Below are positions 2,055-55,284 of a stretch of 64,000 bases of DNA, in pieces. This DNA is from an uncultured Granulosicoccaceae bacterium (lineage in GTDB: Bacteria; Pseudomonadota; Gammaproteobacteria; Granulosicoccales; Granulosicoccaceae): NCBI GenBank assembly GCA_937931165.1, contig CALHCI010000084.1:1-64000 (forward strand). The letters are read 5' to 3'. Position 1 is the first letter of the stretch. Each line of letters opens with the position of its first letter. Both the position numbers and the translations under genes were made by a program. The notes below the pieces were generated by a model. The model searched no databases. It was not told where the DNA came from and saw only the letters and a list, made by a program, of their open reading frames with translations.

Positions 2055-2750
2055 CTAATTCGCCGGTGTGTAAACACCGCCGTGATCGGCTGACCACTGC
2101 AACGGCTGATTCAGGAATTTCTCTACTTCATCAAGCGTGTTTGTATCGAAGTAACCTTTGTTACGGCACAGCTTTAACACATCCCACCATGTAACGAGAT
2201 GGTGCAGATTCAACCCTCGGGCAGCGAGCTTGGAACTGGTATCCGGAAACACATCGTAATAGAACACCACCAGGGTATGCTCGGTTACCGCACCCGCCGT
2301 ACGCAATGCATCGGCAAACTTCAGTTTGGAGCCACCGTCAGTAGTCAGGTCTTCGACCAGCAGCACCCGCTGACCTTCTGTTAAGTCTCCTTCAATCTGT
2401 GCATCGCGCCCGAATCCTTTGGGCTTTTTGCGAACGTAAAGCATTGGCAGACCCATACGTTCTGCTATCCATGCGGCAAACGGTATACCTGCGGTCTCAC
2501 CACCGGCAATCGCATCAAACGATTCAAAGCCAACATCGCGCATTAGTTTGGACACAGCAAAATCCATTAACGCCGAGCGGATGCGCGGGTATGAGATCAG
2601 TTTGCGACAATCGATATACACCGGGCTGGCCAACCCTGAAGTAAGCTTGTACGGCTGATCTGCACGAAAATGCACCGCATCGATTTCAAGCAGCATACCG
2701 GCAGCAAGCTCTGCCATGGTTTCTTCATCGGGGAAGGAGTTTTGAAACAT
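2055..2750 (-). CDS. pyrE: Orotate phosphoribosyltransferase
   Basis: Fifth step of de novo pyrimidine synthesis: orotate + PRPP to OMP. The 231-residue length fits the family. Diagnostic blocks are [21 protein letters not shown] near residue 40, [13 protein letters not shown], and the PRPP-binding loop [18 protein letters not shown]. It lies between pyrC upstream (24 bp from its stop) and hpt downstream (4 bp), so the three nucleotide genes are probably one transcript. The ATG at 2750 has no clear ribosome site; an internal ATG at 2715 is a less likely alternative. Confidence 0.95.
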
Positions 2751-2774
2751 GTTATGTAACCAGTGTTAGGGTAT

Positions 2775-3815
2775 TTAACTTACGTGCCAGTGCAAGGCAC
2801 ACTCAGGGTCGAATACAGTGACCGGACCTTCCGCAGTTTGCACGCTTGCCGCATATTCAACAGGCTCACTTCTTTTTTCAAGTGTTACAGTGTTGACGTT
2901 CGGAGCCAGTCCGTAAAACGCCGGGCCGTTTAACGATGCAAACGATTCAAGGTTATCGAGCCTGCCTTCTTCTTCAAAAACATGCGCCAGACAGGATAAT
3001 GTATTGGGTGCATTGTATACACCGGCACAGCCGCAGGCAGACTCTTTCGCACCATCTAAATGCGGCGCGCTGTCAGTACCAAGAAAGAAACTTTTGTCAC
3101 CGGAAGTTGCTGCCTCACGCAGCGCCAGTTGATGGGACTGTCGCTTAGCAATAGGCAGGCAAAAATAGTGCGGCCTGATACCGCCTTTAAAAATGTGGTT
3201 GCGATTGATCATCAAATGATGGGTGGTGAGTGTTGCGGCAAGGTTGTCACCGCCACTTTTCACGTAGTCAACACCATCACTGGTAGTGACATGTTCCATC
3301 ACCACACGCAGTCCCGGTATGCGGCTGCGTAGCGGCTCGAGCACGGATTCGATAAACACCGCTTCACGATCAAAAATATCGATGTCAGGATCGGTCACTT
3401 CACCATGCACGCACAGCGGCAAACCAATCTCTGCCATGCGTTCAAGCACATCAGTTACCCGGGTGATGTCTTTAACGCCGGAGTCGGAATTGGTTGTCGC
3501 ACCAGCCGGATACAGCTTGACCGCGCGTATTAATCCTGAGTCGGCGGCGGCGGCAATATCGTCAGCACTTGAAGCTTCGGTGAGATAAAGCGTCATCAGT
3601 GGCTCGAAAGTCGAGCCTGCCGGCAGCGCCGCCATTATTCGCTCGCGATAGGCAACAGCGTCTGCCGCCCTGACCACCGGCGGCACCAGATTCGGCATGA
3701 TGATAGCGCGGGCGAAGTGACGGGCGGTGTCGGGCAGCACCGACTTCAGCATGTCGCCATCACGCAGATGCAAATGCCAGTCGTCGGGTTGCTTGATTGT
3801 GAGTGTTGTAGGCAT
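2775..3815 (-). CDS. pyrC: Dihydroorotase, class II (PyrC type)
   Basis: Zinc amidohydrolase that cyclises carbamoyl aspartate to dihydroorotate, third step of pyrimidine synthesis. The N-terminal metal motif [13 protein letters not shown], the [15 protein letters not shown] stretch with the carboxylated lysine, CVHGEVTD, and LGTDSAPH near the C-terminus match the short homodimeric PyrC class. The ATG at 3815 ([13 protein letters not shown]) gives 346 residues, matching the family; the frame is open to an earlier start at 3845, which would add ten unusual residues. It leads the pyrC-pyrE-hpt group. Confidence 0.95.
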
Positions 3816-3862
3816 CTGACCAGTGCGGTGCTTTATTGGCCGCACATGGTAGCGTCAGAGGG

Positions 3863-4975
3863 TTAGGACTTCCAGCGATCATCCTTGACGATGGCTTCGC
3901 AATGATTACCGGAGACAACCATTTCAAGCCTCGTGCCGGGGGTTGCCGAATCGACCGATACCATAGCAAACAACAGATTAGCGTCGTATTTCGGTGAGAA
4001 CGCGCAACTACTTGCATAGCCTGCAAGTGTACCGTTGTTTAGTACGGGCCATCGCTCACGCAGCCCCGGCAGTGGATTGCCAGCCACCATTAGGTGGCAC
4101 AGGCGCCGCTTTACACCTTGCGCCTGCAGTGCTTCGATGGACTCTTTGGCCATATACGGCGCAGGTTTATCCAGATGCATGTATCGCTCAAACCCGCACT
4201 CGAGCACGTGATCGTCATGAGTCATATCACTGCCGTATGACTTAAGACCGGTCTCAAGACGCTCGATCAGGTTAGGTGAACCGGCGTGTATGTTGTACTT
4301 TCCGCCCGCATCCCAGACGGCATCCCAAAGCGCCAGCCCGTCTGCACTGTTTTGCAAATAGATTTCATAGCCACCCTGTCCGCTCCAGCCGGAACGCGCC
4401 AGCACCACATCGGTACCGGCAATGGTGGTTTCGATAAAGCGGAAAAAACGAATGTCACGAACCTGTGGTCCCAGCAGATCAGCCATCAGGTCATCGGCTT
4501 TCGGTCCCTGCACCGCAAGCGGGCTGACATCAGGCTCAAACACACGGACATTCAATCCACAACCATAGGCGATCCCCTTCACCCACAGCAGCACGTCCGA
4601 GTCAGCAATAGAAATCCAGAACCGGTCTTCAGCCAGGCGCAGAATGATTGGATCATTAACCACCAGCCCGTCCTGATCGGCAAGTGGCGCGTACACACAC
4701 TGACCCACCTCGCAAGGTGCAATATGCCTTGGAGTGATGAGCTCAACCAGCGCCAGAGCATCGGGGCCGACCACCTCTACCTGACGTTCTGCAGAGACAT
4801 CCCACAACTGCACATTGGCGCAAAGGTGATGGTATTCATCCAGCGTGTTGGTGTAGTTGACCGGCAACACCATGCGGTTGTAAACCGTGTAACTCTTGAT
4901 ACCCAGTTCCCGAACACGCGGCTCGAAAGGAGTGACACGTAGTCGGGGGGAAAGAACCAGTTCTACCGGATTCAT
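3863..4975 (-). CDS. dmdA: Dimethylsulfoniopropionate demethylase-like aminomethyltransferase
   Basis: GcvT-fold, tetrahydrofolate-dependent enzyme expected to remove a methyl group from DMSP, giving methylmercaptopropionate. At 370 residues it has DmdA length rather than the longer GcvT. From memory of the Pelagibacter enzyme, it shares the N-terminal pattern LSPRLRVTPFEPRV, the run SYTVYNRMVLPV, the block WDVSAERQVEV, the stretch WISIADSDVLLWVKG, and RSGWSGQGGYEIY, which separate DmdA from glycine-cleavage T proteins. It stands alone on the minus strand, between pyrC and a divergent flavoprotein gene. The rest of the demethylation pathway (dmdBCD) is not nearby. A DmdA-like paralogue acting on another methyl donor remains possible. 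Confidence 0.82.
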   Translation of the reverse strand: MNPVELVLSPRLRVTPFEPRVRELGIKSYTVYNRMVLPVNYTNTLDEYHHLCANVQLWDVSAERQVEVVGPDALALVELITPRHIAPCEVGQCVYAPLADQDGLVVNDPIILRLAEDRFWISIADSDVLLWVKGIAYGCGLNVRVFEPDVSPLAVQGPKADDLMADLLGPQVRDIRFFRFIETTIAGTDVVLARSGWSGQGGYEIYLQNSADGLALWDAVWDAGGKYNIHAGSPNLIERLETGLKSYGSDMTHDDHVLECGFERYMHLDKPAPYMAKESIEALQAQGVKRRLCHLMVAGNPLPGLRERWPVLNNGTLAGYASSCAFSPKYDANLLFAMVSVDSATPGTRLEMVVSGNHCEAIVKDDRWKS

Positions 4976-46949: not shown

Positions 46950-47714
46950 TCAATCGTCAGCCATTCGCCAGCCACCCGGCAATTCACCGAGACCGGGCGC
47001 TGCCTCAACCCCGTAAACATTCCGCAGATTTTCAGCACTGAGCACATCAGCGGTGATTCCGTCTGCCACCATCTGCCCCTGCTGCATGAGGTACAGCCGG
47101 TCACAATAGCGCGCCGCAAGCGACAGATCATGCAGTACAACCAGACAACAGCGATCATCAGCGGAAAAGCTGCGCAATACACTCATGGTCTGAAGCTGAT
47201 GCTTGAGATCGAGTGCGGCAACCGGTTCATCGGCCAACAACACAGTGGGCTCTGTTGCTAGTGCTCGCGCTAACAACATACGGGTGCGTTCACCACCGGA
47301 AAGCGTTGTAGCATCCTGCTGGCGTAGTGCATCGCAGTCGGTGGCGGCAATTGCCGCATCAATCGCACGCTTGTCATCGTCACCAGGCTTTTGCCAGGCC
47401 CCCATATGCGGCCTTCGTCCGAGTGTGACGATTCTTTCAACACTCAACGGCCAGTTTACCGGACCGCTTTGCGCCACCCATGAAAGCAGACGGCTGCGCT
47501 TCGTTGCCGGTATACGTTTGATACTGGTGCCATCAAGAGTGACATCGCCTTCGTCACACGGGGTTAGTCCAGCCACTGCATTCAGCAGTGTGGACTTACC
47601 CGCGCCATTCGGACCGATCAATCCGACAAGCTCACCGGCATTAAGAGTGAGACTGACGTTGTCGACAAGTTTTTTATTGTTGCGAATGATTCCGACAGAA
47701 TGAGCGATCAGCAT
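46950..47714 (-). CDS. btuD: Vitamin B12 ABC transporter ATPase
   Basis: A 254-residue ATPase of the BtuD/HmuV/FhuC family: Walker A GLIGPNGAGKSTLLNAVAG, signature TLSGGERTRMLLARAL, Walker B VLLADEPVAALD and switch VLHDLSLAARY. It overlaps btuC by 1 bp and closes the btuB-lipoprotein-btuF-btuC-btuD operon. The family alone would also allow heme or siderophore, but the riboswitch and gene set indicate cobalamin. Confidence 0.9.
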   Translation of the reverse strand: MLIAHSVGIIRNNKKLVDNVSLTLNAGELVGLIGPNGAGKSTLLNAVAGLTPCDEGDVTLDGTSIKRIPATKRSRLLSWVAQSGPVNWPLSVERIVTLGRRPHMGAWQKPGDDDKRAIDAAIAATDCDALRQQDATTLSGGERTRMLLARALATEPTVLLADEPVAALDLKHQLQTMSVLRSFSADDRCCLVVLHDLSLAARYCDRLYLMQQGQMVADGITADVLSAENLRNVYGVEAAPGLGELPGGWRMADD

Positions 47715-48715
47715 TACACGTATTCCCGCCGGCTCTGCACAATCAGGCGCAGAAAAAACGGTGCGCCTACCAGAGCGGTTAAAACACCTACCTTGAGCGG
47801 CGTATCAGTTGGAATAATGCGTACACCAATATCAGCGGCAAGCAACATCGCAGCACCACCCAGCGCAGAAACCATCAGTAACCGACCGGGCTGATAACCC
47901 ACATAGGGGCGCAGTAAATGCGGCACCACCAACCCTACAAAACCGATCATACCGACAGTGGCAACCGCTGCACCGACCGCAAGACTGACCGCTATAAAAA
48001 CACGCCAGCGCAACCGCTGCGGGTTAACACCCATACTTTCTGCGGTGCGCTCCCCCAGGGTTAATGTGTCAAGCTGACCACCAACACCCACCAGCAACAA
48101 CCAGCCGGCAATAGTGGTTGGGATCATTAACCAGAAGTCAGCCATACTTCTGTCGGTGATATCTCCCAGGGTCCACAACACCAGCTCACGTACCGCAAAC
48201 GGACTGGGCGCAAGGTTTAACAACAGTGACATGCCGGCGGTTGCCAGTGCATTAACTGCCACACCCGCCAGTATTAGTGTGGTAATCGACGCATCACGGC
48301 CTGCCATCAGGTAAACGATAATAGTAGCGAGCATCGCACCACACATGGCTGCAATTGGCAGTACCCAGGGCATTGTGTTACTGACGCCAAAGTACAATAC
48401 AAATACCGCAAAGAATGCAGCGCCACTGGCAGAGCCGACAAGCCCCGGGCTTGCCAGCGGGTTGCGAAGCAGACCTTGCATGGCTGCACCACAGAGCCCC
48501 AGAGAGGCTCCTGCGAACAGCGCTATCAGTGCCCTTGGTATACGAATCTGCGACAGGATAATACCGTGCACAGCATCATCACCACGCAACCAGCTACCGA
48601 GTGCCGCAAACAGGGGTAACGGTTCACGGCCAATCGCAAGCGATGCAATAAACAACAGTGCAACAACCACACAAAGTATTACCGGCAGGCGGCGATTTGC
48701 TGGTGCGTTACTCAT
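47714..48715 (-). CDS. btuC: Vitamin B12 ABC transporter permease
   Basis: A 333-residue FecCD/BtuC-family permease with about ten transmembrane helices. LSQIRIPRALIALFAGASLGLCGAAMQGLLRNPLASP and GFVGLVVPHLLRPYVGYQPGRLL are family signatures; the latter includes the coupling helix that touches BtuD. It overlaps btuF by 4 bp. Confidence 0.92.
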   Translation of the reverse strand: MSNAPANRRLPVILCVVVALLFIASLAIGREPLPLFAALGSWLRGDDAVHGIILSQIRIPRALIALFAGASLGLCGAAMQGLLRNPLASPGLVGSASGAAFFAVFVLYFGVSNTMPWVLPIAAMCGAMLATIIVYLMAGRDASITTLILAGVAVNALATAGMSLLLNLAPSPFAVRELVLWTLGDITDRSMADFWLMIPTTIAGWLLLVGVGGQLDTLTLGERTAESMGVNPQRLRWRVFIAVSLAVGAAVATVGMIGFVGLVVPHLLRPYVGYQPGRLLMVSALGGAAMLLAADIGVRIIPTDTPLKVGVLTALVGAPFFLRLIVQSRREYV

Positions 48716-49560
48716 TGAACTGTCGTCATTCTGATCCGTTCTTCCTGCAGCCGCTCAAGTATATCGACAGTCCATGGACCGGCACATATCATCATACGAC
48801 TCGGTATAGAGATAATATGCGGATCAAGCCCGGCCTTAAGCAATGCCGGGTGCCGGCTGGTCATCTGTGCACGCGAGTAGGTTCCGGGGCTATAGGGGGA
48901 ATCAATCAGCGCGTCCGGTGCCATGCTTATAATCTGTTCAAGCGATAACTGCCCGTAACTTTCAATACCCGCGTCTGTTGCAGCATTGCGCCAACCCGCC
49001 ATCTCCATTAACTGCCCGCGCAAAGAGCTGGCACCACTGGTATAGCCGTTAGGGTCGTAGGCAGCTGCGACGGGCCTGGGCTCAACAACCGGCTCAAGGT
49101 TCAGCAGCCGCTGCTGCAGATCGGTAATGATTGCCTGCCCACGTTCCTCCTGTCCTACCCAGGTGGCAACACTTCGGATGTTGTCTATCAGTGTTTCAAT
49201 ACTGTTGGCAATGGGCAACGACTCCACTCGCAAACCCACTTCGGTGAGCAGTTTCACAGTGTGCAGTGCGGTGTATTGACCGGCGATAACTACATCAGGC
49301 GCCAGCCTCAGGATTTTTTCGGAATAACCTTTGTTTGCAGGAAAGTTGCGGGCTTTTTCATAATAATATGACCCTGCGGTATCGTGCGATAAATTGGTCA
49401 GTGTCAGTATCTGGTTATCATCTGCTAACAACAGCACCAGTTGATCAGCGCACAGGTTAATAGAAGCCACCCTCAACGGCTCTGCAGATACTACCGGCGA
49501 TGTCAGTAGCGGTAACACCGACACCAGCAACCAGAGCGAAATAATTCTCATGAGCTTCAA
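48712..49560 (-). CDS. btuF: Vitamin B12-binding periplasmic protein
   Basis: A 282-residue cluster III binding protein with a Sec signal peptide (MKLMRIISLWLLVSVLPLLTS). The opening RVASINLCADQLVLLLADDNQILTLT and the IETLIDNIRSVATWVGQEERGQ backbone helix fit BtuF/HutB-like proteins. It delivers cobalamin to BtuCD. A 40-bp gap separates it from the lipoprotein gene upstream. Confidence 0.9.
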   Translation of the reverse strand: MKLMRIISLWLLVSVLPLLTSPVVSAEPLRVASINLCADQLVLLLADDNQILTLTNLSHDTAGSYYYEKARNFPANKGYSEKILRLAPDVVIAGQYTALHTVKLLTEVGLRVESLPIANSIETLIDNIRSVATWVGQEERGQAIITDLQQRLLNLEPVVEPRPVAAAYDPNGYTSGASSLRGQLMEMAGWRNAATDAGIESYGQLSLEQIISMAPDALIDSPYSPGTYSRAQMTSRHPALLKAGLDPHIISIPSRMMICAGPWTVDILERLQEERIRMTTVQ

Positions 49561-49600
49561 GGTACGACAGCACCCGAGAGAGTGCTGTCGTCAAGTCCGG

Positions 49601-50923
49601 TTACTGGACGAAATTTAAACCGGCAGGTACCAGTGTGGTCGGAAGCGTTGCACCCACCTGACTGCCATCAGCCGGGTTAAGCACAACGATTCCGGGGTTC
49701 ACCGCATCACCAATAGCAACCCACAGATTGCCGGCAGGTCCTGTAGCAAGATCACGCACATCAACACCGGAAATACCACCAAAAGCGCTGTTAATAATTG
49801 CTCCGGTGTTAGGGTCAAACTTGACAACATTTGAGCTGCCAAAGCTTTGCTGCGAAATTAAGAATGCGTTGTTAGCATCTATCACTTCAACGCCCATCAT
49901 ACGACCGGTCTCTGCAGTATCGTCAATTAACAGGTTGGTACTGTAATCTTCAGTATCTACAGTAATGATGCCGCCGGTGAATGCAGGATCACGGGAACCG
50001 TCAAACGCACCGAAGTCACCTGCCGCAGCAACAAAAATCGTATTCGTCGCTTCATCAAAAGAGATTTCCCATGGGTTAAATGCAGGCAGTTCTATACCAT
50101 TGAATTCCGCACTGGTACCGGTATCTATTTCAACACCATTAGCAGTATTGAATACCGCTACAACACCCGGCAATGCAGGTGCAAAGCCGTCGAGGCGCTG
50201 CATAAATACAAACAACTTGTCGCCAACTACCAGTCCTCTGGTGGCTTCAGGGACACCATCGGCATCATAGGCGCTAATATCTATCTCACCGGTCTTAAAC
50301 TGCGAAGCATCGGTAGCCGACGGATTCACCTGCCAGATTTTAGAACTGCCATACCGCATCAGGTAACCTTTGGCACTGTCTACAAAGGCCATATCGTGCG
50401 GGTTACTCGACTCATCGACGTTGCCATCGTTAGTCGATGACTCGAAGATGACTGAAGAAGAATCGTCAACCGAATAGGCAGCAATACTGTCTGACTGAAA
50501 CCGCCTGATGACGAAGTATCTGTCCTCAAATGTCCGAACGATGGTATCCGACACACCCGGATTCAAACCAGTCTGGCCATCAAACGGCTCTGATGTGTTG
50601 TAGATTTCCACACCGCCAGAGCTGAAATCACTGGCTAGTGCAGTAACGATAACCCGAGATGCAGCAGCGCTGTCAGTCCCGTCGGTTCCATCAGTGCCTT
50701 CAGTTCCATCGGTGCCGTCAGTCCCGTCGGTTCCATCAGTTCCGTCAGTTCCGTCAGTTCCGTCAGTTCCGTCAGTGCCGTCAGTTCCGTCAGTTCCGTC
50801 TACATTTTCCCCGCCATCTACAGCCACACCTTCGCTGCTGCTGTCACAGGCACTGAGCGCAAGCGTTGCGGCAAACAGCGGCACCAGCCACCACTTTGAT
50901 TCTTTTATTACGGGAGTTTTCAT
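49601..50923 (-). CDS. Beta-propeller-like lipoprotein within the B12 uptake operon (BtuG-like candidate)
   Basis: 440 residues. A lipoprotein signal (KWWLVPLFAATLALSACDSSS, lipobox Cys near residue 26) precedes a Gly-Thr-Asp tandem linker, then a domain of about 350 residues with repeated short-strand units: SRVIVTALASDFSSGGVEIY, GLVVGDKLFVFMQRL, TIFVAAAGDFGAFDGSRDP, GPAGNLWVAIGDAVNPGIVVLNPADG. This pattern suggests a YncE-like beta-propeller. It lies 12 bp after btuB under a cobalamin riboswitch. In Bacteroidetes the surface beta-propeller lipoprotein BtuG caps BtuB and captures B12; an analogous role here is an inference from position and architecture, not from recognised homology. Confidence 0.75.
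   Translation of the reverse strand: MKTPVIKESKWWLVPLFAATLALSACDSSSEGVAVDGGENVDGTDGTDGTDGTDGTDGTDGTDGTDGTDGTDGTEGTDGTDGTDSAAASRVIVTALASDFSSGGVEIYNTSEPFDGQTGLNPGVSDTIVRTFEDRYFVIRRFQSDSIAAYSVDDSSSVIFESSTNDGNVDESSNPHDMAFVDSAKGYLMRYGSSKIWQVNPSATDASQFKTGEIDISAYDADGVPEATRGLVVGDKLFVFMQRLDGFAPALPGVVAVFNTANGVEIDTGTSAEFNGIELPAFNPWEISFDEATNTIFVAAAGDFGAFDGSRDPAFTGGIITVDTEDYSTNLLIDDTAETGRMMGVEVIDANNAFLISQQSFGSSNVVKFDPNTGAIINSAFGGISGVDVRDLATGPAGNLWVAIGDAVNPGIVVLNPADGSQVGATLPTTLVPAGLNFVQ
50672..50797 (-). repeat. Nine-base tandem repeat encoding Gly-Thr-Asp units
   Basis: Fourteen contiguous 9-bp units of the form GTCAGTTCC on the plus strand, i.e. GGAACTGAC coding Gly-Thr-Asp on the minus strand; one unit codes Glu in place of Asp. 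Units differ mostly at third positions. Copy-number change would keep the reading frame and only alter the length of the acidic linker between the lipid anchor and the propeller. Confidence 0.95.
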
Positions 50924-50935
50924 ACGTGACCTCAG

Positions 50936-52966
50936 TCAGGGTTGATAAGTGAAACTAATAAAACCGGAACGCCCGGGTTTAGGGTAGCCGTTAAAATCTT
51001 CATAGATATGATTGCCAATGTTGTTAATTTCAAAATCAACCCGCCACAATTTGAAGTAGCGACTAACACTGGCACTGTGAACTTTCTGATCCGCTGCCGG
51101 CAACAGATTTGGACTGTCATAAAACCGGTCTGCGTTTAACTTGTAGGTGTAACCCAGCTTCCACTGCGGATTTTTCCAGCCAATATTCAACGCACCGTCA
51201 ATGGCCGCTTCACCCGGCAACTGCTTGCCGGTAAACCCGCTGATCGCTGAAAGGTTTTTGGTATCCTGAACTGTCAGATTGCCATTAACAGAGAACCCGT
51301 TTTGCCAGCCAAAACTGCCGGCAAGCTCAAGCCCGCTGCCACGGGCAGCAGAGATATTTTCTGATCTCCCGACTCCGCGTGCATCATACACTCTTGAAAT
51401 CAGATTCTTTTTACGGTGATAAAACCATACCAGTTGAACAGTAGTATCGATCTTGTGGCGCGGGTCAGACTGCCACTCTACACCGATGTCAGCATTGCGC
51501 GACTCTTCGGTTTCGAGCGCAGGATTCCCCTCGAAAAAACCCTGACTGCCAAACAACTCGAAAAACGACGGTGTTCGTTGCTGCAGTGACGCATTGGCAA
51601 AAACGTTTGCACTGCCGCCTAATTTTTCGCCGAGCGAATGATTAATGCCAACTTGTGGGGTTATCGCATCTGAATCATAGTCAGCGCGTTGAAAGCCTGA
51701 GTTGGATGTGTCGTAGCTATCCCTGACTATAAACCCGAGCAAACCAACAGAGAACAAACTACTGCCACCGTTATAGTAACGGTTACGCTGAAAATTCAGG
51801 TCGGTGCGAAACCGGGAGGCTTGTGTACTGGTGGCACTACGCAACTGATTTTCAGTATCCAGAGATTCATACCGGCCTTTGAGATTAAACGAAAGTGAAC
51901 GCCCCTCGGTCAGCTTTTCCCAATAGCCCGTCCCCCCCAGCACGCGTGTGTTTGACAATATCTGCTGATTACCCAGACCAATAGAACCCTGGCTGTCATC
52001 GTAGAGCTCATCTTTGGCACTGTAGTGCACCCCGAGTCTGGAAGACCAGTGACCTGCAGCAGCTGTCCGGCTAAGTGTTGAGCGCCATTGAACAGAGTCT
52101 GTATCAAGCGACGCACTACCACTGGCCGTGTTACGCCAATCCGCTATCTGCTGCAGATGACTGTCTATTTGTATTGCCTGCTCGAGTCTGTTGCCACCAC
52201 TCAGCGTAAAGCCGCTTTTCAAAAACCCCGAGGTACTTTGTGTTGCTGCATTGTTGCGTTGCTGTTTTTCATCATCAGCAGTGTTAAACACCGTACCGTT
52301 ATCATTAACAAACGAAAAGTTATTATCGCTTTGCCGATGCGTAAATGACGCAACCAGCCTTTGCTCATTCAAAAACTGTAACGGCCCCGCATAAGACGCG
52401 GAGACCCTTGCCGACCCGAACGATCCAAACCCTGCCAGCAACCGGGTGGATGGATTGGCTGTAGCACGATTAGTGGTAATGTTTACCGCACCACCAATAG
52501 CGCTATTACCCAATTGCACCGGCACCGCACCGCGATAGACTTCTACACGGTCAGCCTGCATCAACTCGATATGACTCAGGTTAACACCACCACCTGAAGC
52601 TTCGTTCAGTAAAATACCATCGAGATAGACATTGACCTGTTCGGCAGTTGAGCCTCGCAGTGACACGGTTGAAAAACTGCCAATGCCGCCACTTTGTCGA
52701 AACTGCACCCCGCTGCTTTCGGCAACCACTTCAGCAAGCGAGCTGCCGGCCTGTTGCAGCGCCTCTTTTTCGATCACTTCGTGTACGCCGGTAAATTCCC
52801 CGGAGGGCACATCACCAATCTCGAACGGTGTGACCGCATTCTGTACCGGTGCCACGATTTCAATCACACCAAGATCAGCGGCCACAACGCTGCCACTGCA
52901 CGCCAAGTACAAGCCAGACGCAGTGCAGAACTGCAGCAGTTTATTGTGTAAACCAGACGGTTTCAA
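50936..52966 (-). CDS. btuB: TonB-dependent vitamin B12 receptor
   Basis: A 676-residue outer-membrane receptor. Signal peptide to about residue 29, plug domain (LAEVVAESSGVQFRQSGGIGSFSTVSLRGSTAEQVNVYLDGILLNEAS, VEVYRGAVPVQLGNSAIGGAVNI) and a barrel ending in FISFTYQP with a terminal aromatic zone. A TonB box-like DLGVIEIVAP follows the signal. The start is TTG at 52966. The cobalamin riboswitch upstream and the B12 transporter genes downstream identify it as BtuB. Confidence 0.92.
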   Translation of the reverse strand: MKPSGLHNKLLQFCTASGLYLACSGSVVAADLGVIEIVAPVQNAVTPFEIGDVPSGEFTGVHEVIEKEALQQAGSSLAEVVAESSGVQFRQSGGIGSFSTVSLRGSTAEQVNVYLDGILLNEASGGGVNLSHIELMQADRVEVYRGAVPVQLGNSAIGGAVNITTNRATANPSTRLLAGFGSFGSARVSASYAGPLQFLNEQRLVASFTHRQSDNNFSFVNDNGTVFNTADDEKQQRNNAATQSTSGFLKSGFTLSGGNRLEQAIQIDSHLQQIADWRNTASGSASLDTDSVQWRSTLSRTAAAGHWSSRLGVHYSAKDELYDDSQGSIGLGNQQILSNTRVLGGTGYWEKLTEGRSLSFNLKGRYESLDTENQLRSATSTQASRFRTDLNFQRNRYYNGGSSLFSVGLLGFIVRDSYDTSNSGFQRADYDSDAITPQVGINHSLGEKLGGSANVFANASLQQRTPSFFELFGSQGFFEGNPALETEESRNADIGVEWQSDPRHKIDTTVQLVWFYHRKKNLISRVYDARGVGRSENISAARGSGLELAGSFGWQNGFSVNGNLTVQDTKNLSAISGFTGKQLPGEAAIDGALNIGWKNPQWKLGYTYKLNADRFYDSPNLLPAADQKVHSASVSRYFKLWRVDFEINNIGNHIYEDFNGYPKPGRSGFISFTYQP

Positions 52967-53240: not shown

Positions 53241-53507
53241 CCGCCTGCATAGCAATTGGCTGTCCTACTGGACCGACAGTCGCCGGAGTGTGGACCAAAT
53301 ACCAGTGACTATCAAGTAAAATATGACTGATTACTGATGCCCGAATCACAATGACGGTACCATGGCTGTCTGACTTGCACCTTATCCTCTTAGACAACGT
53401 TACTGACCACGACTCTGCATTGGCAATAGTCGAAACTTTAAGACAGGACTACCGCGATAATCGATTGGCAGGCTATGATGCGCGCCCCACAGTTGAAGAC
53501 TACCGCC
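53241..53507. other. Intergenic region between divergent riboswitch and cobT
   Basis: About 270 bp containing the btuB promoter (minus strand, upstream of the riboswitch) and the cobT promoter. A plus-strand frame from 53351 overlaps the cobT start and has a metallophosphatase-like opening (WLSDLHLILLD), but no continuation; it is not called a gene. Confidence 0.4.
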
Positions 53508-54527
53508 ATGTACAGCCAGGCATTTACACAACGACTGCAAGCGGCAACTCAGGTGCTCGATCAGAAAACCAAGCCACCGGGTTCCCTCGGCACACTTGAA
53601 TCGGTTGCTGCACAAATCAGTGCTATTCAACATACTGATACACCCTGTACAGACTCGGCACGTGCGTTAATTTTTGCTGGCGATCACGGTGTTGTACAAG
53701 AAGGTGTCAGTGCTTTTCCGCAGGAAGTAACCCGGCAGATGCTGCTTAACTTTACTGCAGGCGGTGCTGCCATAAATGCACTGTGTAACTTGCATAACAT
53801 TGAACTCGAAGTCATTAACACCGGCGTTACCGGAGACCCGGTTGAAGGCACGGTTACCGAAAAAATAGCAAACGGCACAGCCAACATGCTAAATACAACC
53901 GCCATGTCACAGCCCGAGCTTGAACAAGCGTTGACCATTGGCAAGGACGCCATGCAACGCGCACAAGACAACAACATTGCACTGGTAGTTACCGGTGAAA
54001 TGGGCATTGGCAACACCACATCTGCCGCGGCTATAGTCGCGGCACTCTGCAACGCCAACGCCAGTGATACCGTTGGCCGCGGTACCGGCCTCAATGATCA
54101 GGCACTTGCCAATAAAACGCAGATTATTAGCCAGGTACTGAAAAAGCACACTTCAACAGATGCAAAAGATGTATTGCGATGCATGGGCGGGTTCGAAATT
54201 GCTGCACTCGCTGGTGCCATGTTGCAAGCTGCCGGCACTCATACTGCAGTGGTTGTCGATGGATACATCACCACGGCCGCAGCACTTTGTGCGGTTGATA
54301 TAAACCCGCAAGTCCGTGAACATCTGATCTTTGCCCACCAGTCTGCCGAGCCCGGACATCAGCTGGCATTAGAAAAACTACAGGCAACACCACTGTTACA
54401 GCTTGATATGAGACTGGGTGAAGGCTCGGGCGCGGCGTTAGCGGTACCGTTAATAAGAAGCGCCTGTGCCATCATCAATGATATGGCGACCTTCGATGAT
54501 GCTGGTGTCACCAAAGAAAGCCATTAA
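53508..54527 (+). CDS. cobT: Nicotinate-nucleotide:dimethylbenzimidazole phosphoribosyltransferase
   Basis: 339 residues; makes alpha-ribazole phosphate, the lower ligand nucleotide of B12. KTKPPGSLGTLESVAAQI, FAGDHGVVQEGVSAFPQEVTRQM, TGEMGIGNTTSAAAI and RLGEGSGAALAVPLI (catalytic Glu) are the family markers. The ATG at 53508 is assigned; two in-frame ATGs at 53475-53480 behind GGCAGG are equally possible. cobS starts 1 bp after its stop, so the two are coupled. Confidence 0.94.
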   Translation: MYSQAFTQRLQAATQVLDQKTKPPGSLGTLESVAAQISAIQHTDTPCTDSARALIFAGDHGVVQEGVSAFPQEVTRQMLLNFTAGGAAINALCNLHNIELEVINTGVTGDPVEGTVTEKIANGTANMLNTTAMSQPELEQALTIGKDAMQRAQDNNIALVVTGEMGIGNTTSAAAIVAALCNANASDTVGRGTGLNDQALANKTQIISQVLKKHTSTDAKDVLRCMGGFEIAALAGAMLQAAGTHTAVVVDGYITTAAALCAVDINPQVREHLIFAHQSAEPGHQLALEKLQATPLLQLDMRLGEGSGAALAVPLIRSACAIINDMATFDDAGVTKESH

Positions 54528-54528
54528 A

Positions 54529-55284
54529 ATGCACCCACTGGTTAATCGCTACTTCGTCGCACAGATGTTCTTAACGCGACTGCCTTCACCAGGCAGGCTG
54601 CGCTGGTCTGAAGCAGAACTCGCTGCCAGCACCGTATTCTTTCCGGTTGTAGGCATTGTAGTCGGCGCTATTGCCTCCCTGACCTGGTATCTGGGTGCAG
54701 CACTTTGGTCAGACACCATCGCGGCATTACTTGCAGTTGGTGCAGCAATCCTGGTGACCGGGGCGTTTCATGAAGATGGACTGGCAGATTCTGCTGACGG
54801 GCTTGGCGGTGCATTTGACGTAAACCGCAAACTGCAAATTATGCGTGATAGTCGCATCGGTACCTATGGCAGTGTATTGCTGCTGTTTGTCGTGCTGGCC
54901 AAAGTATTGAGTATCGCTCAAATACATTCTGTCACTATGGTTGGCGCGCTGGTCGCCGCACATGTTATTGCGCGCTTCACTTCATTGCCATTGATAAAAA
55001 ACAACACCTACGTTCGTGAGGAAGGCACCGGAAAACCTTTTGCCGCTACCGTTAACCAGCAACAACTGGTCATCGCCTCGGCAGTCACACTGGCGGTCAC
55101 CATTATCGCTCTGGGCTGGCGTGCAGCCATTGTCATACCCGTTGTAGTGCTTTTTGTATGGAGCGCACAGTGGTATTTACGAAGGAAAATCGGCGGTGTT
55201 ACCGGAGATGTGCTGGGCGCGGTCAATTCTCTGACTGAGCTCCTGGTCTACCTGGTATTGAGCGTAGCATGGTCCGCTTCCTAG
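54529..55284 (+). CDS. cobS: Adenosylcobinamide-GDP ribazoletransferase (cobalamin synthase)
   Basis: A 251-residue integral membrane enzyme that joins adenosylcobinamide-GDP to alpha-ribazole (phosphate), the last step of B12 assembly. LTRLPSPGRLRWSEAELAAS near the N-terminus, GAFHEDGLADSADGLGGAFD with the conserved acidic cluster, MRDSRIGTYGSVLLL and GGVTGDVLGAVNSLTELLVYL define the family. The ATG at 54529 lies 1 nt after the cobT stop. It ends about 40 bp from the convergent transglutaminase-like gene. Confidence 0.95.
   Translation: MHPLVNRYFVAQMFLTRLPSPGRLRWSEAELAASTVFFPVVGIVVGAIASLTWYLGAALWSDTIAALLAVGAAILVTGAFHEDGLADSADGLGGAFDVNRKLQIMRDSRIGTYGSVLLLFVVLAKVLSIAQIHSVTMVGALVAAHVIARFTSLPLIKNNTYVREEGTGKPFAATVNQQQLVIASAVTLAVTIIALGWRAAIVIPVVVLFVWSAQWYLRRKIGGVTGDVLGAVNSLTELLVYLVLSVAWSAS

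Follow-up and report, generated by a model that had tools for sequence, protein, structure and literature searches.

A BtuG-like β-propeller lipoprotein as candidate lid of a BtuB-type receptor in a Granulosicoccaceae bacterium

Results

Directly behind a btuB-like receptor gene, an uncultured Granulosicoccaceae bacterium carries a gene for a lipoprotein that is predicted to fold into a β-propeller, with BtuG as its nearest solved structure. This lipoprotein quite probably serves as a lid that captures corrinoids for an outer-membrane B12 transporter of two parts, with a mode of action like that of BtuB-BtuG in Bacteroides. We infer that it binds corrinoids, faces outward, forms a complex with BtuB and moves as a lid. 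In excerpts of the founding paper on BtuG (PMC6143338), BtuG2 is described as a seven-bladed surface lipoprotein that binds B12 tightly and caps BtuB2, and BtuG homologs as "exclusively found" in Bacteroidetes. The protein is also used as a reagent, as stated in an excerpt of PMC11287211.

Operon and host

The window, i.e. the whole stretch of 64,000 nucleotides that was analysed, contains the propeller gene on the minus strand (49601..50923, 440 aa, ATG start), identified by its ORF, lipobox, profile search, structural model and Foldseek matches. Its start is separated by 12 nt from the stop of the preceding gene, which encodes a BtuB-like TonB-dependent outer-membrane receptor (50936..52966, minus strand, 676 aa; Plug domain, E = 1.5e-17). 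Upstream of the receptor gene lies a cobalamin riboswitch aptamer (RF00174, 53050..53292, minus strand) with 72.1 bits in Rfam at a gathering threshold of 31.5. No second cobalamin riboswitch was found in the 4.86-Mb assembly. The propeller gene is followed, on the same strand, by genes for a BtuF-like periplasmic binding protein (48712..49560; Peripla_BP_2, E = 7.6e-17), a BtuC-like permease (47714..48715; FecCD, E = 7.1e-84) and a BtuD-like ATPase (46950..47714; ABC_tran). The first-pass annotation had placed a lipoprotein between btuB and btuF under a cobalamin riboswitch, and the ORF agrees with it exactly; the Rfam match is in line with it as well. Divergent neighbours on the plus strand are cobT (53475..54527; DBI_PRT, E = 2.5e-128) and cobS (54466..55284; CobS, E = 1.9e-53), both for nucleotide-loop assembly.

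The NCBIfam matches of the transport genes were below cut-off. The best were the BtuC model for the permease, a corrinoid ATPase model for the ATPase and the myxochelin receptor MxcH for the receptor (2.9e-41), which was followed by the B12 receptor model TIGR01779 (TonB-B12; 3e-37, also below cut-off). For the binding protein, TIGR04281 was the best match, ahead of the BtuF model (7.8e-9, below cut-off). An RNA hairpin of 12 pairs, one of them G-U, lies between the propeller gene and btuF (49564..49591, minus strand; MFE -25.9 kcal/mol for a 68-nt stretch, z -3.27). No T run follows it. The hairpin may balance expression and adjust the amounts of receptor and lid relative to the transporter.

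The genome of the host, with a completeness of 94.9%, encodes the B12-dependent MetH (1731 bits), and neither MetE nor CbiC was matched in it. The host thus probably requires B12 and cannot make the corrin ring itself, with an assembly gap as a possible cause of the missing matches.

Predicted fold

In the protein, a signal peptide and the lipobox LSAC are followed by a (DGT)n tether and then by a domain about 350 residues long. The domain as modelled (residues 84-440; 49604..50674, minus strand) was predicted with AlphaFold2 from an alignment of 12 members and reached a pLDDT of 88.2 and a pTM of 0.90. The model consists of strands nearly throughout. Seven blades with a 1+3 closure were counted by eye from its strand list, in which one outer strand (about 340-345) was uncalled by DSSP. 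Foldseek gave 1007 matches in the PDB at E ≤ 0.001. Ranks 1-15 were BtuG chains with a query TM of 0.71-0.76 and a target TM of up to 0.82, followed by XusB chains on ranks 16-20 and then, among the best 50 of the 1007, by YVTN, NirF, AztD and YncE propellers.

Pfam returned nothing at E ≤ 0.01 for the domain alone. On the whole protein, the low-complexity tether was matched as "collagen", together with one sub-threshold match. The propeller call rests on structure prediction and fold comparison. It had been made at first pass from strand-repeat features; the predicted fold agrees with it, and these features alone would be weak evidence for it. The structure prediction and comparison with BtuG that were proposed then returned a propeller, and not the other fold that would have spoken against it, with BtuG as the nearest solved structure.

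Sequence relationship to BtuG

A 13-row family profile was searched against 177,635 distinct PDB sequences and found nine at E ≤ 0.001 (1.3e-6 to 1.3e-4), with the next one at 0.97. Seven of the nine are BtuG according to titles or papers. Also among them are 8puj, the aligned letters of which are identical to those of BtuG 8okv, and 8baz, which was assumed to be BtuG from its name and length. With hhalign, the family profile matched two BtuGs at 97.1%, and the 228 aligned columns ran in colinear order up to the C-terminus. In the forward profile test, the values for three single BtuGs were 95.5, 16.3 and 53.5%. Four near-miss propellers reached 84.2-94.7% with 51-129 columns aligned, and two from the host genome had 18.7 and 2.2%. 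The near-miss controls came from five loci, four of which had an ORF that could be scored (L064 gave none). In the reverse test, a profile of three BtuGs failed to pick up the window domain (0.7%, 27 columns), and it scored two control propellers with 89.5 and 94.2%. A larger profile of 29 rows ranked the propellers of the histidine kinases 4a2l (1e-7) and 3v9f (3.4e-6) above BtuG (6.4e-6), a rank that arises from summed weak repeats.

BLASTP of the window domain reached E = 0.005 with one BtuG. According to the excerpts of PMC6143338, BtuG homologs were screened by BlastP at 1e-10 in 313 gut genomes; a screen at this level could not have detected the window protein. DUF5074 was matched by all three BtuGs compared and by one of 29 family members, and the window domain has no Pfam match. 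A recent transfer from Bacteroidota that would be visible as direct similarity was considered and rejected on the BLASTP values (propeller 0.005, receptor 6e-6). On these profile comparisons, remote homology of the family specifically to BtuG is plausible; the structural resemblance to BtuG, as judged from the model, is firmer than the sequence homology.

Members of the family and their loci

A contig scan of genomes yielded 12 loci with family members, labelled as Chromatiales, Granulosicoccaceae, Nitrospirota, Deltaproteobacteria, Latescibacterota, an unplaced bacterium and Gemmatimonadota. The nearest relatives of the window protein are encoded in a Chromatiales MAG (68%) and in a Granulosicoccaceae MAG (40%). 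In the Gemmatimonadota-labelled MAG (L012), the propeller and the gene order nearly match those of the Latescibacterota MAGs, and its label is likely a binning or naming error. The six Latescibacterota-type loci, L012 among them, are near-copies.

Full-length members were found in 21 of 369 genomes of the same class (own genome included), spread over 11 family codes, with one member split over two contigs. A search with the whole protein had matched 53 of the 369, and 32 of these were discarded as chance or low-complexity matches that covered the DGT linker or short pieces only; the 21 with a match spanning the propeller were kept. The same 21 were returned by the profile search, in addition to one partial divergent match and eight weak ones. 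In the phylum of L004, two of 118 genomes were matched, namely L004 itself (full-length) and one with a weak short match. Searches of viral contigs and plasmids yielded no relative of the family, and viral contigs yielded none of BtuG.

Altogether, 33 loci were compared (the window and 32 others, six of the latter near-copies). A related receptor is encoded directly upstream on the same strand in all 32 (blastp against the window BtuB, E of 7e-31 or better), with gaps between -534 and 176 nt, the large overlaps being due to over-long ORF starts. All 20 further full-length members in the 369 same-class genomes directly follow a BtuB-like receptor as well. Of the 33 loci, 29 (28 of the 32 and the window) have a cobalamin riboswitch upstream in the same orientation. 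The four without it (L003, L006, L035 and L049) are cut short by the contig end, either inside the receptor gene or 120 nt ahead of it. The link to B12 uptake that had been proposed for the window holds across the loci compared. In the Latescibacterota-type loci, a binding-protein gene is located between riboswitch and receptor. Eleven non-receptor neighbours were scanned. Eight are corrinoid or BtuF/BtuC-type genes (CobO twice, PduO-type, CobD/CbiB, CbiZ-CobD, two binding proteins and FecCD), one is a decarboxylase (L005) and two have no Pfam match. CbiZ and CobD/CbiB share one frame in L007 (7725-9272) and are two separate ORFs in L008, L010, L012 and L013; the single frame is either a fusion or a sequencing effect.

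Partner receptors

For the receptors, 28 of the 33 were used, with L003 (partial) and the near-copies L008, L009, L012 and L013 omitted. The best PDB matches of their profile were the B. thetaiotaomicron BtuBs solved with BtuG (8blw with 4.7e-52, 8p97 and 8p98, 8bmx with 1.5e-45), in the order BtuB1, BtuB3 and BtuB2, followed by XusA and then by E. coli BtuB (4.3e-43). Searched alone, the window receptor matched XusA (1.8e-20), E. coli BtuB (1.2e-14) and then Bacteroides BtuB1 (2.5e-10). As references, 58 riboswitch loci were hand-picked excluding the known propeller loci and many contig-end sites, so that they give no frequency estimate; 43 of them have a receptor ORF of more than 500 aa and two are stubs of less than 400 bases. 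These 43 solo receptors scored 100-216 bits with the 28-receptor profile, compared to 152-159 for three Bacteroidota BtuBs and 152 for that of E. coli. Many solo receptors are thus nearer to the partner receptors than the three BtuBs of Bacteroidota or that of E. coli.

A FastTree of 75 receptors places the 28 that are linked to a propeller on one side of a branch with a support of 100 and the 43 solo ones on the other. The program flagged long branches (L051 and L053) and an odd composition in 24 rows. A quick IQ-TREE run with 36 hand-chosen rows gave the same split with a support of 99. In both unrooted trees, the three Bacteroidota BtuBs are found on the propeller side of the branch bearing the solo and E. 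coli BtuBs, with supports of 94 and 92, below star level. Propeller and receptor distances were correlated over 27 loci (Mantel r = 0.89, none of 5000 permutations as high), and r was 0.78 for the 339 of 351 pairs with a propeller distance over 0.4. This is expected if propeller and receptor travel together. The model of the window receptor has a pLDDT of 71.6. In its fold search, PqqU, Bacteroides BtuB, XusA and E. coli BtuB were mixed at the top, with a best query TM of 0.82 to BtuB1; as backing for a likeness to BtuB-BtuG, this modelled comparison is weak.

Presumed ligand face

The pocket of BtuG2 is narrowed by Trp194, Trp272 and Tyr316, and Tyr335 contacts adenosylcobalamin. In the hhalign alignment with two BtuGs, for which the numbering of B. 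finegoldii was taken as that of BtuG2, Trp194 corresponds to Gln159 and Tyr335 to Ala324, while Trp272 and Tyr316 fall into uncertain columns. The named pocket aromatics are thus not recognisably kept in the window domain, and its contacts would differ from those of BtuG if it binds B12. Among the family members, conservation at Gln159 is 89%. The presumed ligand face is on average no more conserved than the opposite one (p = 0.40); as a post hoc observation, it holds 15 of the 35 best conserved positions, compared with 8.8 expected. The net charge is -32 for the window domain, -12 to -61 for 29 domains and -16 to -19 for BtuG. It does not discriminate, as a lactonase and a YVTN propeller of the same genome have -17 and -24.

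Anchoring

The tether between lipid anchor and propeller is encoded by a 9-bp tandem repeat (50672..50800, minus strand; TRF period 9, 14.3 copies). It matches two further places in the same genome (G000:C6:36413-36583 and G000:C107:7-204) and may thus be a linker that these places have in common, with differing numbers of repeats. Besides the window protein with the cysteine of its LSAC, a lipobox-type cysteine is present in 25 of the 32 other loci by a loose rule and in about 20 by a stricter pattern. Seven members are without it by the loose rule, namely L005 and the six of Latescibacterota type (L007-L010, L012 and L013). The L005 propeller (2574-4046) ends in a FlgD_ig-like domain, just above the Pfam cut-off, of a type that is found in secretion tails; it is possibly a secretion or sorting tail. 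L007 (5968-7200), the Latescibacterota-type member that was scanned, has an EF-hand/dockerin-like tail below the Pfam cut-off. The lipid with its DGT tether and the FlgD-like and dockerin-like tails would be different ways to hold the same propeller outside the cell.

Discussion

Compared with BtuG (BtuG1-3 of B. thetaiotaomicron; PDB 8okv, 8bai, 8bmx, 8bmy, 8p97 and 3dsm), the window protein is likewise a propeller lipoprotein encoded beside a btuB-like gene in an operon with a cobalamin riboswitch, and BtuG is the best match of its domain both by fold and with the 13-row profile. It differs from BtuG by the long DGT tether, other pocket aromatics and the lack of a recognised Bacteroidetes export signal. 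Its gene follows the receptor gene as in two Persicobacter loci, whereas the one of B. finegoldii precedes it. XusB, the lid of the Bacteroides xenosiderophore transporter XusA (9hqk, 9hqe and 9gbc), is also a propeller lipoprotein over a TonB-dependent receptor; it differs by DUF4374, a siderophore ligand and a hook insert, as described in excerpts of PMC13142918. The functions of receptor, binding protein, permease and ATPase are shared with E. coli BtuB/BtuF/BtuCD, but no lipoprotein gene lies within the 7.5 kb examined around btuB of E. coli K-12. Excerpts of PMC13398666 describe the DUF4465 (BtuJ) proteins as extra B12 binders that also occur in Pseudomonadota, with a β-jellyroll and not a propeller. 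Among the matches listed from open-licence PMC papers, no BtuG-like propeller outside Bacteroidota was mentioned in titles or abstract openings. A Leptospira paper among them deals with other propellers.

The proposed lid would work as follows. A cobalamin riboswitch permits expression of its operon at low B12, and the genes would thus be switched on under B12 scarcity. Through its lipid and the DGT linker, the lipoprotein would be tethered to the outer membrane, with the propeller above the extracellular mouth of the BtuB-like barrel. The central face of the propeller would bind the corrin ring, and the lid would then close. Receptor loops would hand the vitamin into the barrel for TonB-driven import, from where it would proceed to BtuF and BtuCD.

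The lipoprotein could also face the periplasm, as most gammaproteobacterial lipoproteins do. Docked on the inner side of the outer membrane, it would then pass the corrinoid from BtuB to BtuF or aid the assembly of BtuB. The residue at +2 after its cysteine is Asp, an inner-membrane retention signal in E. coli. The Bacteroidetes export signal was not found after the cysteine, where CDSSSEG is, judged by eye, unlike MKWD of BtuG2, and excerpts of PMC6143338 describe this signal as Bacteroidetes-exclusive. This orientation is nevertheless unlikely, since BtuG and XusB, the nearest structural relatives, are described in the excerpted papers as lids or surface lipoproteins of receptors, and since L005 and the six Latescibacterota-type members lack a lipobox, with the tails mentioned above in the two that were scanned. 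A lid on the outside might in turn serve another or wider ligand, such as cobinamide only, a siderophore-like complex or a B12-binding protein, and the riboswitch would then indicate membership in the B12 regulon only. XusB has the same fold, acts with a related receptor and carries siderophores according to the excerpts on it; XusA and MxcH are the best matches of the window receptor on its own, and the pocket residues are unlike those of BtuG. The riboswitch in 29 loci and the eight scanned neighbours with corrinoid or BtuF/BtuC-type functions make this reading quite improbable. In one same-class genome (L060, 4161-7572), a divergent receptor-propeller lipoprotein pair is followed by DUF3450 and ExbB-type genes, with no Rfam riboswitch within 12.7 kb. 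This pair, which adds to the case for other ligands, is perhaps a lidded transporter for one.

That a generic YVTN- or regulator-type propeller lipoprotein entered the operon by chance and has no role in uptake would agree with weak Reg_prop matches in five of 29 members, with SGL and NHL in single members and with the control propellers that score close to BtuG in the profile tests. The constant position behind a BtuB-like receptor, seen in each of the 20 further full-length same-class members over the 11 family codes (own included), renders such a coincidence very hard to credit.

According to the first-pass annotation, a parallel in Gammaproteobacteria would be a convergent or transferred device for B12 piracy. 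A parallel propeller is indeed predicted, but the choice between these two origins is too narrow, as the unrooted receptor trees also allow a single one that is shared with the Bacteroidota pair. One origin of lidded BtuBs is possible from the receptor sequences, and it may be common to the BtuBs with propeller lids in all phyla. It is somewhat short of an even bet that the family is an anciently split second branch of BtuB-BtuG, with its own pocket chemistry and anchoring, in Gammaproteobacteria and in Nitrospirota-, Latescibacterota- and Deltaproteobacteria-labelled genomes, and that lidded transporters are not an invention of Bacteroidetes.

If the family is a working lid, the published exclusivity of BtuG to Bacteroidetes would be wrong. 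The lid would then be a wider answer to B12 scarcity that can be tested in a proteobacterium, and it would raise the question of how such a protein is displayed on the surface without the Bacteroidetes export signal.
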